In this document: positions 1 to 6,794 of the stretch, piece after piece
Numbering within the stretch: the stretch's first letter is position 1
Layout of the letters: each line of letters opens with the position of its first letter
Origin: Paludibacter sp.
Lineage (GTDB): Bacteria; Bacteroidota; Bacteroidia; Bacteroidales; Paludibacteraceae
NCBI GenBank assembly: GCA_017882285.1
Contig: JADGPS010000003.1
Coordinates: 1-64,000, forward strand
Direction of reading: 5' to 3'
DNA length: 64,000 nucleotides
Position numbers and translations under genes: made by a program
Notes under the pieces: model-generated
What the model saw: only the letters and a program-made list of their open reading frames with translations
Database searches by the model: none
Told to the model about the DNA's origin: nothing

Positions 1-1
1 T

Positions 2-199
2 CGGCTATCAGAAACCATTGGCGATAAAACGCTACTGGGATTGATACGTAAATACCTTCAAAGCGGCATCATGGTTGACGGAGTTGTAAGTCAACGTACC
101 GAAGGCACACCTCAAGGTAGCTGAAACTAATCATCAATCGAGAGAAAAGTCAGGTTTGTGAAGTAAATCAAACCAAATTCTTAGGTTACACCATTCAAG
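2..199 (+). pseudogene. Group II intron reverse transcriptase/maturase remnant (internally deleted, frameshifted)
   Basis: Frame 2 reads RLSETIGDKTLLGLIRKYLQSGIMVDGVVSQRTEGTPQGS*; another frame then continues LKLIINREKSQVCEVNQTKFLGYTIQ. Both are typical LtrA-type RT blocks, and the catalytic YADD segment that should lie between them is missing. Confidence 0.72.
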
Positions 200-204
200 T
201 GGTA

Positions 205-236
205 CAAAGATATATTTTTATTTTCAGATACTCAAA
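205..236 (-). promoter_or_regulatory. Bacteroidetes-consensus promoter directed leftward (TTTG-N20-TATCTTTG)
   Basis: Reverse complement TTTG (236-233), exact 20-nt spacer, TATCTTTG (212-205). Homologous to the copy at 6643-6674. Confidence 0.5.
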
Positions 237-351: not shown

Positions 352-355
352 TTTA

Positions 356-381
356 TTTGGTTTTAAATGTTGTCTCACCAA
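356..381 (+). repeat. att direct repeat, left copy
   Basis: TTTGGTTTTAAATGTTGTCTCACCAA; 25/26 identical to 6769-6794, which contains the 3' end of tRNA-Gln. Confidence 0.85.
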
Positions 382-512: not shown

Positions 513-534
513 TTGTCCCCCCATTTGTCCCCCC
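513..534 (+). repeat. Paired 12-bp-period direct repeat TTGTCCCCCC x2, putative arm-type integrase sites
   Basis: TTGTCCCCCC at 513-522 and 525-534; related TGTCCCC pair at the other end (6707-6725). Confidence 0.5.
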
Positions 535-555
535 GAAAATAATTTACTATCTTTG
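524..555 (+). promoter_or_regulatory. Integrase promoter (TTTG-N20-TATCTTTG)
   Basis: TTTG 524-527, 20-nt spacer, TATCTTTG 548-555, upstream of ATG 586. The -33 box overlaps the second arm repeat. Confidence 0.6.
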
Positions 556-585
556 TTGCGTGTTTAACCAATCATACATACAACA

Positions 586-1950
586 ATGGCAAAAATTAAA
601 TTTTACCTCAAAGACAGTAAACAGACTGAAACCGCTATTTATGCACGAATCAGTTACGGCGCAACAATAGCAGACACCGACGGCAAAGAGTACATCAGTC
701 TAAAGTACTACATTGCAAAGAGTATAAACCCCATATTTTGGAATCCAAAGACCAACCGAGCCAAAGGAACAAAAGACTTTCCGGAATATCCTGAATTTAA
801 TAACCGTTTAGATGTTATTGAATCAACTATAAACAGCGTTTTTCTAAAGTTTGAATTGTCGAACATTACCCCAAACAATAAACTAATTAAAATCGAATTA
901 GATAAAATCCTGAAACCTGAAATAATTATTTCAAAAGACGAGAACCCAAACGATTTATTTCCGTTTATCGACCACCTGATTAAAACATCGCCCAACAAAC
1001 ATTCAACTATAAAAAGTTTTATGGTTGTACGAAAAAATTTACAAGACTACCAAAAGGCAAAGAAAACGGTTTTAAACTTCAATAGTATTGATATTGACTT
1101 TTACAACTTCTTTATTGACTACCTGACTAAACCGACCAAAGGGAAAAACAAGGCAGGGCAAACCATAACAAAGGCGGGACTATCAAAGAACACAATCGGC
1201 ACACGAATAAAGATACTCAAAACCTTTATAAACGAGGCAAACGATAGAGGTATTAATGTACTACCTGACTACAAAAAGAAATCATTCAAAGTACTTAAAG
1301 AAGAAACTAATTCAATCTATTTGACTGAATCGGAATTAATGCAAATGTACTACATTGAAACATCGCCCGAGAGTTTGGAAATTTTGAGAAAGGAATTTTT
1401 TACCGACAAATTACCCGACTATTTGGCAAAAGTCCGGGACTTGTTCCTGATTGGTTGTTATACAGGGTTGCGGTTTTCTGATTTGTCGAAACTGAATAAA
1501 GACAATATCACTAAAGACAATACGATAAATGTTAAAACCATAAAAACGAATCAAAGTGTAGTCGTACCAATCCACCCGATAACTAAACAGATATTTGAAA
1601 AGTATAACTATCAATTACCCCGAGAAATTAGCAATCAGAAATTTAATGAGTATTTGAAAGACGTTGCAAAAATAGCACGGATAAACGAACCCATTACAAC
1701 CGAATCGACCAAAGGCGGTTTTAAAGTATCTGAAACAACCGAAAAATACAATTTAGTAACCAGCCACACCGCCCGCCGTTCCTTTGCTACCAACGCCTTT
1801 TTATCTGATATGCCGAGTATTTCTATAATGAAAATAACAGGACACAAAACAGAATCGGCGTTTATGAGATATATTAAAATGAGTGCAAAAGATAACGCTA
1901 TCAAAATGCAATCACATCCGTTTTTCAATAAATTAATCATTGCTAAATAA
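586..1950 (+). CDS. Tyrosine recombinase/site-specific integrase
   Basis: SAM-like N-terminal region plus catalytic blocks (TGLRFSDL, HTARRSFATN, ITGHKTESAFMRYIK). Confidence 0.95.
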   Translation: MAKIKFYLKDSKQTETAIYARISYGATIADTDGKEYISLKYYIAKSINPIFWNPKTNRAKGTKDFPEYPEFNNRLDVIESTINSVFLKFELSNITPNNKLIKIELDKILKPEIIISKDENPNDLFPFIDHLIKTSPNKHSTIKSFMVVRKNLQDYQKAKKTVLNFNSIDIDFYNFFIDYLTKPTKGKNKAGQTITKAGLSKNTIGTRIKILKTFINEANDRGINVLPDYKKKSFKVLKEETNSIYLTESELMQMYYIETSPESLEILRKEFFTDKLPDYLAKVRDLFLIGCYTGLRFSDLSKLNKDNITKDNTINVKTIKTNQSVVVPIHPITKQIFEKYNYQLPREISNQKFNEYLKDVAKIARINEPITTESTKGGFKVSETTEKYNLVTSHTARRSFATNAFLSDMPSISIMKITGHKTESAFMRYIKMSAKDNAIKMQSHPFFNKLIIAK

Positions 1951-2836: not shown

Positions 2837-3139
2837 ATGAACGAAGTTATTTTAAACGGAATTAGTTTTGAGCAGTTACAAGACAGTATCAGAACTATTG
2901 TACAAAATGAAGTACAAAAAATTGTATTAGGGTTGACCACCGCCCCCGAACCCGCCCCCGAACTCATCACAAGAAAACAAACCTGCCACATTTTGGGTAT
3001 TTCCTTACCTACATTAAACGAATGGACTAAAACAGGTATTATTCCGGCGCAACGTATCGGAACACGTGTACGCTACCAAAGAGCCAACGTGTACGCATCT
3101 TTGAAAGACATTGAAACCCTTAAATATCGGAGGGCGTAA
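2837..3139 (+). CDS. Helix-turn-helix (MerR/excisionase-like) domain protein
   Basis: LITRKQTCHILGISLPTLNEWTKTGIIPAQRIGTRVRYQRANVYASL resembles HTH_17/excisionase-type domains. Confidence 0.85.
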   Translation: MNEVILNGISFEQLQDSIRTIVQNEVQKIVLGLTTAPEPAPELITRKQTCHILGISLPTLNEWTKTGIIPAQRIGTRVRYQRANVYASLKDIETLKYRRA

Positions 3140-3142
3140 ACA

Positions 3143-3538
3143 ATGGCAAAGAAGTGTTTAACCGCAACCGCAAAAAAAGGCGTTTTTATTCAAAATGTAA
3201 TCCATACCGACATATTTGATTTAATGCCCGAATCAGGCGCAAATTTGCCCTTTTCTTATTTCCGTAGGAGTTTACCCATACAGCCGTATTTAATCCAACA
3301 GGGGGCAAAGTATGTTGTTGAAAGCCACAAAGGAATTACTAAAGTATTGCACACCGGATTGAAACCCACCAAAGTAAACGGAATCTATTCCGGCGACGTA
3401 TATGATCAACAAACGAGGTTGAAAAGTTTGATTTTGTTTTGTTCCAACCCCGCCGAATGTAGTTATACAGTCTATTTTTTCAATGGACTACCCCCGAAAA
3501 GTCTGAATAAAGTTTTAAACGAAATTTTGGCGAAATGA
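3143..3538 (+). CDS. Hypothetical protein, translationally coupled to Rep
   Basis: 131-aa ORF; its end overlaps the next start by 4 bp. Confidence 0.7.
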   Translation: MAKKCLTATAKKGVFIQNVIHTDIFDLMPESGANLPFSYFRRSLPIQPYLIQQGAKYVVESHKGITKVLHTGLKPTKVNGIYSGDVYDQQTRLKSLILFCSNPAECSYTVYFFNGLPPKSLNKVLNEILAK

Positions 3539-4707
3539 TAGACAGCGTAACATCAAACCTGACTGTATTGAATATCGGAATTGAAAAACCCGAAAAGGTC
3601 AAAGGTTTACGGATTAGACCGATTAAAGATAATTTTTATTCAGTTCGTGGAAGTTTACACAAATACAAAAACAATGGACTACATAACGCCGATGATTTTC
3701 AGTTGAGTGATTTAAAAAACACCCTGAATCTGTTATCTAAAGAAATAGGTTTAAATGCCGACATCGCCCCCCTTAATGGTTTTGAGTTCGGCGTGAATAT
3801 AAAACTACCAACGAACCCGAATAATGCCTTAAATCGACTTATATTACATAAATCAAATCAGGCGAACAATAGCAAAGACTATAAAGAATTTGATTATAAA
3901 AATCATTCGTTCAAATTTTATAATAAGTCCGGTTTGACAAATATAGAGCCGTATCACTCCGATAACATCTTGAGGGTTGAGGTCAAAGTCAACAAAATGA
4001 CTTATATAAAACAAAAGGGCGTTTATTGTAAACGAATAGCTGATTTATTAGATGTTGAGGTTTGGGAACGATTTGAAAAAATACTGATTGAAACAATACA
4101 GGAATGTTTATTTATTGATTTTTCGACAAAAGAGATTAATTCATTATCGACTAAAAATTATATTCAATATCTGAAATATATTAATCCGACTATTTGGGAA
4201 CATTTATACAATGAAACGAGGGGAAACCGCAACAAATACAGCCGAGAGCGGTTAAAGTGTGAAACGTTTATTAATCAGTACAGTAAATCAACTCTTAAGA
4301 CTGATATTATAAACCTGATTAAAGACAAATGTACGGAATTGCGGGACATTTCAAAGGCAAATGAGATAGTTAAAAAGTGGGACAAAATTACCGTTTTTCA
4401 ATCTATAAATAAACCGAGAGAATGGGACAAAATTACCTATAAGATAAACAGTAATTCTGTACCAACCCGCACCAACTCCGAAACACGTTGTAAAGGTTGC
4501 GGTTGTATCATTGAAAAACCCCGAAAAGGTCAGTTATATTGTAGTGCAAATATTGTTGGATATAAAGAGGCGCACAAATGCCGGAATAATAACAGTAATA
4601 TCCGAAACAACACAAAAAGGTCAATCAGGCGGGTTTTATCTATTCCTTTGATGTTTGACTTGTCGGACACCATCGCACCGGAGAAAAGAATTTATTTAAA
4701 CCAATAA
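3535..4707 (+). CDS. Probable replication initiation protein (phage/plasmid II/X-like) with C-terminal Cys motif
   Basis: GSLHKYKNNGLHNADDFQLSDLKNTLNLLSKEIGL...FEFGVNIKLP...FYNKS...ILRVEVKV is reminiscent of the II/X Rep family; C-terminus has CKGCGC...CxxN-type cysteines. Assigned from pattern memory only. Confidence 0.5.
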   Translation: MIDSVTSNLTVLNIGIEKPEKVKGLRIRPIKDNFYSVRGSLHKYKNNGLHNADDFQLSDLKNTLNLLSKEIGLNADIAPLNGFEFGVNIKLPTNPNNALNRLILHKSNQANNSKDYKEFDYKNHSFKFYNKSGLTNIEPYHSDNILRVEVKVNKMTYIKQKGVYCKRIADLLDVEVWERFEKILIETIQECLFIDFSTKEINSLSTKNYIQYLKYINPTIWEHLYNETRGNRNKYSRERLKCETFINQYSKSTLKTDIINLIKDKCTELRDISKANEIVKKWDKITVFQSINKPREWDKITYKINSNSVPTRTNSETRCKGCGCIIEKPRKGQLYCSANIVGYKEAHKCRNNNSNIRNNTKRSIRRVLSIPLMFDLSDTIAPEKRIYLNQ

Positions 4708-6565: not shown

Positions 6566-6598
6566 AAAAAAAGAGCGGTCAGGAACCACCCCGACCGC
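6566..6598 (-). terminator. Intrinsic terminator on minus strand
   Basis: Hairpin 6575-6580/6593-6598, then 7 T on the minus strand. Confidence 0.7.
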
Positions 6599-6637
6599 CA
6601 ATTGTGTTTAACCCACCAACGGCAAACCGTAGGAAAG
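6566..6637 (-). ncRNA. Candidate small RNA with own promoter and intrinsic terminator
   Basis: Downstream of TTTG-N20-TACCTTTG; ends in GCGGTC...GACCGC stem followed by TCTTTTTTT on the minus strand; no ORF. Confidence 0.4.
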
Positions 6638-6642
6638 TGATA

Positions 6643-6674
6643 CAAAGGTATGTTTTTATTTTCAGATACTCAAA
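6643..6674 (-). promoter_or_regulatory. Bacteroidetes-consensus promoter directed leftward (TTTG-N20-TACCTTTG)
   Basis: Exact 20-nt spacer; conserved with 205-236. Confidence 0.6.
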
Positions 6675-6706
6675 ACATTAAAAAAATCAGATACTTTTCT
6701 ACATAA

Positions 6707-6725
6707 TGTCCCCTCACTTGTCCCC
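6707..6725 (+). repeat. Paired 12-bp-period direct repeat TGTCCCC x2, putative arm-type integrase sites
   Basis: TGTCCCC at 6707-6713 and 6719-6725; matches 513-534. Confidence 0.5.
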
Positions 6726-6736
6726 TTTGTTAAAAA

Positions 6737-6765: not shown

Positions 6766-6768
6766 CAA

Positions 6769-6794
6769 TTTGGTTTAAAATGTTGTCTCACCAA
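6769..6794 (+). repeat. att direct repeat, right copy, overlapping tRNA-Gln 3' end
   Basis: TTTGGTTTAAAATGTTGTCTCACCAA. Confidence 0.85.

Follow-up and report, generated by a model that had tools for sequence, protein, structure and literature searches.

A 6.4-kb element inserted at the 3′ end of a tRNA-Gln gene in Paludibacter sp. carries, near its right end, a predicted small RNA (sRNA) gene whose linker is complementary to two other sites on the element: the leader of the integrase gene (int) and the start of the replication operon. The gene anatomy, its conservation, both target sites and the co-variation of the sRNA with the int leader are directly observed. We consider it likely that the ~73-nt RNA is a regulator that base-pairs at both sites and restrains integrase as well as replication, an interpretation in which transcription, duplex formation, repression and immunity are inferred. 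On the int mRNA, the linker would cover the first ~10 nt; in the replication operon, it would pair with codons 4–7 of the opening ORF, which overlaps rep. Such pairing would most likely block ribosome loading and may also expose the mRNA to RNase. Made constitutively, a single RNA could thereby limit both integrase and replication in a resident element, and it would likewise silence any incoming relative that has the same seed. Few sRNAs of Bacteroidota mobile elements are understood; if the interpretation is correct, replication and integrase are under the joint control of one RNA family, which would account for quiet small integrative elements.

The window, by which we mean the whole 64,000-nucleotide stretch of DNA that was analysed, contains the element between two att core repeats (Table 1). 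The gene order is tyrosine integrase, an unknown ORF, an HTH/excisionase-like gene, ORF3143, Rep and small ORFs. Rep has no Pfam match and no PDB sequence match; its AlphaFold model (pLDDT 77) has the RCR initiator 4cij as top PDB match (prob 1.00, E 2e-3, low TM) and also matches an Inoviridae Rep in BFVD. Judged from this model, Rep is probably a rolling-circle initiator, an assignment that is not firm. Direct repeats of TTGTCCCC lie near both element ends (513–536 and 6705–6730). Because the −33 TTTG of int overlaps one of these repeats, integrase bound to its arm sites could repress its own promoter. Window positions 1–196 hold fragments resembling a group-II-intron-type reverse transcriptase (read by eye, without a family search), which adjoin a second copy of the sRNA promoter (about 197–240). 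Together, the fragments and the second promoter copy suggest that another element was once present in tandem at this tRNA-Gln.

Table 1. Features of the element and of its predicted sRNA gene, in window positions.
Feature	Position	Strand	Basis
Second sRNA promoter copy without sRNA body, remnant of earlier tandem element	205..236	-	promoter match; repeat comparison
attL core repeat	355..381		27-bp repeat, 96%
Integrase promoter, TTTG-N20-TATCTTTG	524..555	+	consensus match
Target 1, GUGUUUAACC, predicted 5′ end of int mRNA	560..569	+	complementarity to seed; co-varies with sRNA
Tyrosine integrase	586..1950	+	Pfam PF00589, PF13102
HTH_17 / excisionase-like protein	2837..3139	+	Pfam, PHROGs
ORF3143, overlaps rep start by 4 nt, opens replication operon	3143..3538	+	ORF list
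Target 2, GUGUUUAACC, codons 4–7 of ORF3143	3154..3163	+	third box copy; complementarity
Putative rolling-circle-type replication initiator (weak structural match)	3535..4707	+	AF2 model and structure search
Intrinsic terminator, 11-bp stem then CTTTTTTTGT	6574..6599, T run to 6566	-	terminator prediction
Predicted small RNA, ~73 nt, start near 6638	6566..6638	-	R1 covariance-model match, 107 bits
sRNA seed GGUUAAACAC (DNA form GGTTAAACAC), linker between two hairpins	6604..6613	-	fold; near-invariant in alignment A1
sRNA 5′ hairpin, CC-U-ACGG-UUUG-CCGU-U-GG	6616..6633	-	RNA folding; pair counts
sRNA promoter, TTTG-N20-TACCTTTG	6643..6674	-	exact consensus match (Bacteroidota promoter)
attR core repeat, within 3′ end of tRNA-Gln	6768..6794		27-bp repeat; tRNA match

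The initial annotation had described a consensus promoter on the minus strand, about 70 nt without an ORF, a strong terminator and a small 5′ hairpin, and each of these features is borne out. The promoter matches the consensus exactly and is kept in relatives, the ORF list contains no ORF of at least 50 aa on the minus strand at 6566–6674, the hairpin was located in the predicted fold, and the terminator is the top terminator-like site of the whole element when ranked by GC pairs. The fold consists of two hairpins (z = -4.0 against shuffles) joined by the GGUUAAACAC linker, which is largely single-stranded, except that its first few bases belong to the stem that closes the 5′ hairpin. Apart from those bases, the locus has what is expected of a trans-acting base-pairing sRNA: its own promoter and an intrinsic terminator, both read from sequence, and an unpaired seed that is conserved, co-varying and complementary to translation-initiation regions. 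Helix co-variation within the sRNA is modest (4 pairs with double changes). The score of the R1 covariance model is partly a self-match, since the window sRNA is among its building sequences. No Rfam family, P4 CI and c4 RNA included, is matched at gathering score.

The perfect 10-nt complement first reported in the int leader, 16 nt before the ATG, is also there: the box, GTGTTTAACC in DNA, is the exact complement of the seed and lies 26–17 nt before the int ATG (586). Two features had been missed, the int promoter and target 2. The promoter predicts an int transcription start at about 559–563, and the seed complement is therefore the extreme 5′ end of the int mRNA. With target 2, the sRNA matches the replication-operon start as well, which, together with the likeness of its relatives to rolling-circle-plasmid copy-control RNAs, extends the original proposal. 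When duplex sites were ranked with the sRNA locus itself left out, the two targets came first and second in the window and in the related elements L003 and L041, and first and third in L065. Chance repetition of the boxes is rejected on shuffle counts and on the genome-wide 10-mer count: two extra exact copies lie on the plus strand of the element against 0.011 expected, a number reached in 0 of 2,000 shuffles, and three of the seven copies of GTGTTTAACC in the 3.18-Mb genome are inside the 6.4-kb element, with one more in a second integrase leader. Shuffled sRNAs had 10-mer matches to two translation-initiation regions in 0.34% of trials. The host-genome target check was limited to the exact 10-mer. 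The second integrase-like leader (L226, on contig C28 of G000, box at 160–169 on the minus strand) reads AGTGTGTTTAACCAATC...ATGGCAAAA, and its gene is cut by the contig end; the window sRNA could act on this leader.

The initial annotation had named the absence of the promoter–terminator pair or of the complementarity from related elements as a refutation; the idea survives this check, with 12 other elements that keep the sRNA and its complementarity. By DNA search, the sRNA locus is present in 15 of 149 relatives, some of the weakest being promoter-only or chance matches; its identity reaches 95% where the adjoining Rep is 76% identical. Across 48 genomes of the genus, the covariance model gave 10 strong matches, and there were further matches in a virus collection (L003), in another genus (L052) and in an element with an int 48% identical (L065), along with degenerate ones in another family (L071/L173). 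Where element ends are readable, the sRNA is positioned at the right end, mostly next to a tRNA gene. R1 matches below ~37 bits were rejected as relatives, being mostly ordinary terminators; weak matches that proved real include L072 (38 bits) and L163 (27 bits). The fold of the L171 sRNA rests on sequence cut at the wrong end. Pattern scans of IMG/VR for the sRNA and for the int leader gave no match, and most IMG/VR integrase relatives are without box and without sRNA.

Target 1 is kept in elements with int down to 48% identity, and target 2 in most of these. The int leaders of L041, L042, L043, L055, L056, L061, L065 and L173 retain GTGTTTAACC, that of L052 reads GTGTTTAACT, and that of L003, GTATTTGACC, faces an altered sRNA, GGUUAAAUAC. 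Against the interpretation, genome G016 has the int box without a detected sRNA; a related element there (L054) carries type I restriction-modification-like genes, and the sRNA was not found in it. Another related element (L052, 8025–10838) encodes a 937-aa tape-measure-like coiled-coil protein and no other evident structural genes. A 6.4-kb contig (L202; G183 C234) has two identical rep matches 3,740 bp apart; it may be a free plasmid that was assembled with part of its sequence repeated.

The target 2 box was found in the window, L003, L041, L042 and L056; the L043 copy differs by one edge change. The ORF that follows the HTH gene in L065 is non-homologous, yet has TGTTTAACC at codons 5–7. 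In G374, a distant homologue of ORF3143 has ACGTTCAAATC at target 2, which fits the element's own seed with one wobble; the box is altered to GUUCAAAU in this element, where the seed is altered too. Because the box is kept in the non-homologous L065 ORF and changed with the seed in G374, target 2 follows the seed and not the protein, which argues for selection on the nucleotides. A codon test at this site is suggestive only: a single codon is used at 12 of 52 invariant residues, and CLT is one of two fully identical triplets among ten.

Five further seed variants are found in other elements (GUAUUUGACC, UGUUCAAAC, UGUUCAAAU, AUUCAAAUGUG and UGUUCGAUU), each common to the element's sRNA and its own int leader. 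Weak model matches beside integrases in other families were the source of new seed/leader pairs. The sRNA of G374 (GUUUGAACAU) goes with the leader AUGUUCAAAC, that of G439 (AUUUGAACA) with UGUUCAAAU, and that of G423 (GGUUUGAACA) with UGUUCAAACC. The last two variants (G220 and G667) turned up among Rep homologues from a profile search after the co-variation rule had been formulated, and served to test it. The antisense RNA of G220, an element whose int is about 29% identical, contains CACAUUUGAAU, and the int leader has the form TACCTTTG-TTATA-ATTCAAATGTG-TAATT-ATG, giving an 11-nt complement that is equalled by 0.09% of shuffled sRNAs. In G667, which belongs to another family of the class, the shared sequence is UGUUCGAUU over 9 nt and then 6 nt (UUAACC) past a short internal loop; its sRNA was recognised by eye.

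Over seven distinct seed pairs, 2 of 5,040 arrangements, the cognate one included, were as good as the cognate or better, and a duplex-energy permutation test over 11 elements gave 5e-5. These p-values overstate independence, since the sequences are related and represent about five independent seed changes. G:U extension was no greater in cognate than in non-cognate pairs, and wobble gives no statistical support. The three elements without such an RNA that were checked (G348, G232 and G261) have no box common to their int and rep leaders. An automatic terminator filter applied to Rep homologues from other families of the class found none; the filter also missed two known sRNAs, so this result is not evidence of absence. 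Conservation and co-variation support, at the level of sequence, the control of integrase by the sRNA that had first been put forward, with transcription and the sign of the control inferred.

Co-variation of repeats alone cannot tell RNA pairing from DNA operators. The boxes are direct repeats on the DNA, one at the int start site and others in or near the rep operon, with the HTH gene between them. GTGTTTAACC and its variants might thus be a site at which the HTH/excisionase-like protein or the integrase regulates int and rep, the sRNA copy being merely another operator. We regard this as unlikely. Wherever a copy is near rep or attR, it is part of the linker in a promoter–hairpin–terminator unit, and the whole unit is kept even when it is at the other element end. 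No promoter was noted at target 2, which is within a coding sequence, and the box of G220 is entirely different from that of the window while the HTH stays recognisable.

Pairing of the sRNA with two mRNAs, which we prefer, is also favoured by the layout of the relatives. In G374, G439, G423, G220 and G667, the sRNA gene is mid-element, in front of rep, and encodes an RNA antisense to the rep leader; in the first three, this RNA starts about 10–20 nt ahead of rep, and its promoter extends into the first rep codons. The initial annotation had left room for a box that is simply a repeat near each end. Such a repeat might serve in integrase arm-binding or in excision, and two of the window boxes do share an orientation and are set in from the att cores by about 180 bp at attL and 155 bp at attR. 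Repeats of this kind would be confined to the two ends, whereas the window has a third copy mid-element (3154). In the family as a whole, the alternative breaks down: the five relatives have their second copy mid-element, inside the antisense RNA gene before rep. Separate arm-site-like direct repeats (TTGTCCCC in the window, GGTAAGAATA in others) already stand at both ends, and we give the end-repeat explanation almost no credence.

A different question is whether the sRNA, having paired with the 5′ end of the int mRNA, protects or activates it and so raises integrase synthesis. In the examined leaders, the target occupies mRNA positions of about +1 to +12, where pairing can block 5′-end-dependent decay, and pairing there could stabilise the message instead of repressing it. 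Target 2, however, is within the translation-initiation region of another ORF, and the relatives have the antisense-to-rep layout, known in pMV158 to inhibit rep translation (PMC4485353). We find such 5′ shielding quite improbable and retain restraint of both mRNAs as the favoured interpretation.

Orphan sRNAs without a matching integrase (L045, L051 and L053), which also count against the favoured interpretation, are well preserved and near tRNA genes, and L045 retains a 210-bp int fragment; they may be remnants or may still be acting. In L047 (9767–9853), the sRNA adjoins a different type of element, one that has primase-like genes and another integrase. More speculatively, the integrative elements of Bacteroidia may have turned a plasmid-type copy-control RNA into a brake on both replication and integration; seed variants would then be immunity groups, and the orphans at tRNA sites host-resident RNA immunity against the same seed class. 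We offer this only as a tentative possibility. The co-varying seeds predict incompatibility groups between elements and open the interpretation to a direct test by compensatory mutations.

Element-encoded RNAs that control their own element have precedents. RNA-OUT of Tn10/IS10 is an antisense RNA that blocks translation of its own element's recombinase, in cis and over ~35 bp, whereas the present sRNA has a 9–15-nt seed and would act in trans on two mRNAs. The P4 CI immunity RNA is grouped with c4 as an element-encoded short RNA matching short leaders. The present sRNA is like the P1/P7 c4 antisense RNA (PMC12197685) in this respect, and its seed-specific pairs could give immunity groups. Unlike c4 and P4 CI, it has no Rfam match at gathering score, and it is predicted to target integrase and replication genes rather than an antirepressor or an attenuated leader. 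RteR of the Bacteroides element CTnDOT is a Bacteroidota mobile-element sRNA, ~90 nt long, that limits transfer (PMC7366714; original title via PMC10994844); unlike the present sRNA, it acts on the tra operon, and the available part of the source describes no integrase target (PMC7366714). The literature covered, which mostly excludes subscription journals, yielded no description of an integrase-targeting countertranscript RNA.

In pMV158, a single-stranded stretch of RNAII next to the terminator hairpin binds and inhibits repB (PMC4485353), which is functionally a close parallel. Like RNAII and other rolling-circle countertranscripts, the sRNA is, in G374, G439, G423, G220 and G667, a short terminator-ended antisense RNA before a putative rolling-circle-type rep, and its predicted pairing region is likewise a single-stranded stretch beside the terminator hairpin. 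Unlike RNAII, it matches the integrase mRNA too and has an extra 5′ hairpin. The defining feature of a countertranscript, being antisense to the rep leader, is present in those five elements and absent from the window. There the sRNA gene is ~1.9 kb downstream of rep and, as in the rest of the Paludibacter clade, at the attR end, from which its RNA would have to act in trans. The sRNA appears to be a countertranscript RNA of the rolling-circle-plasmid type that would also restrain integrase.
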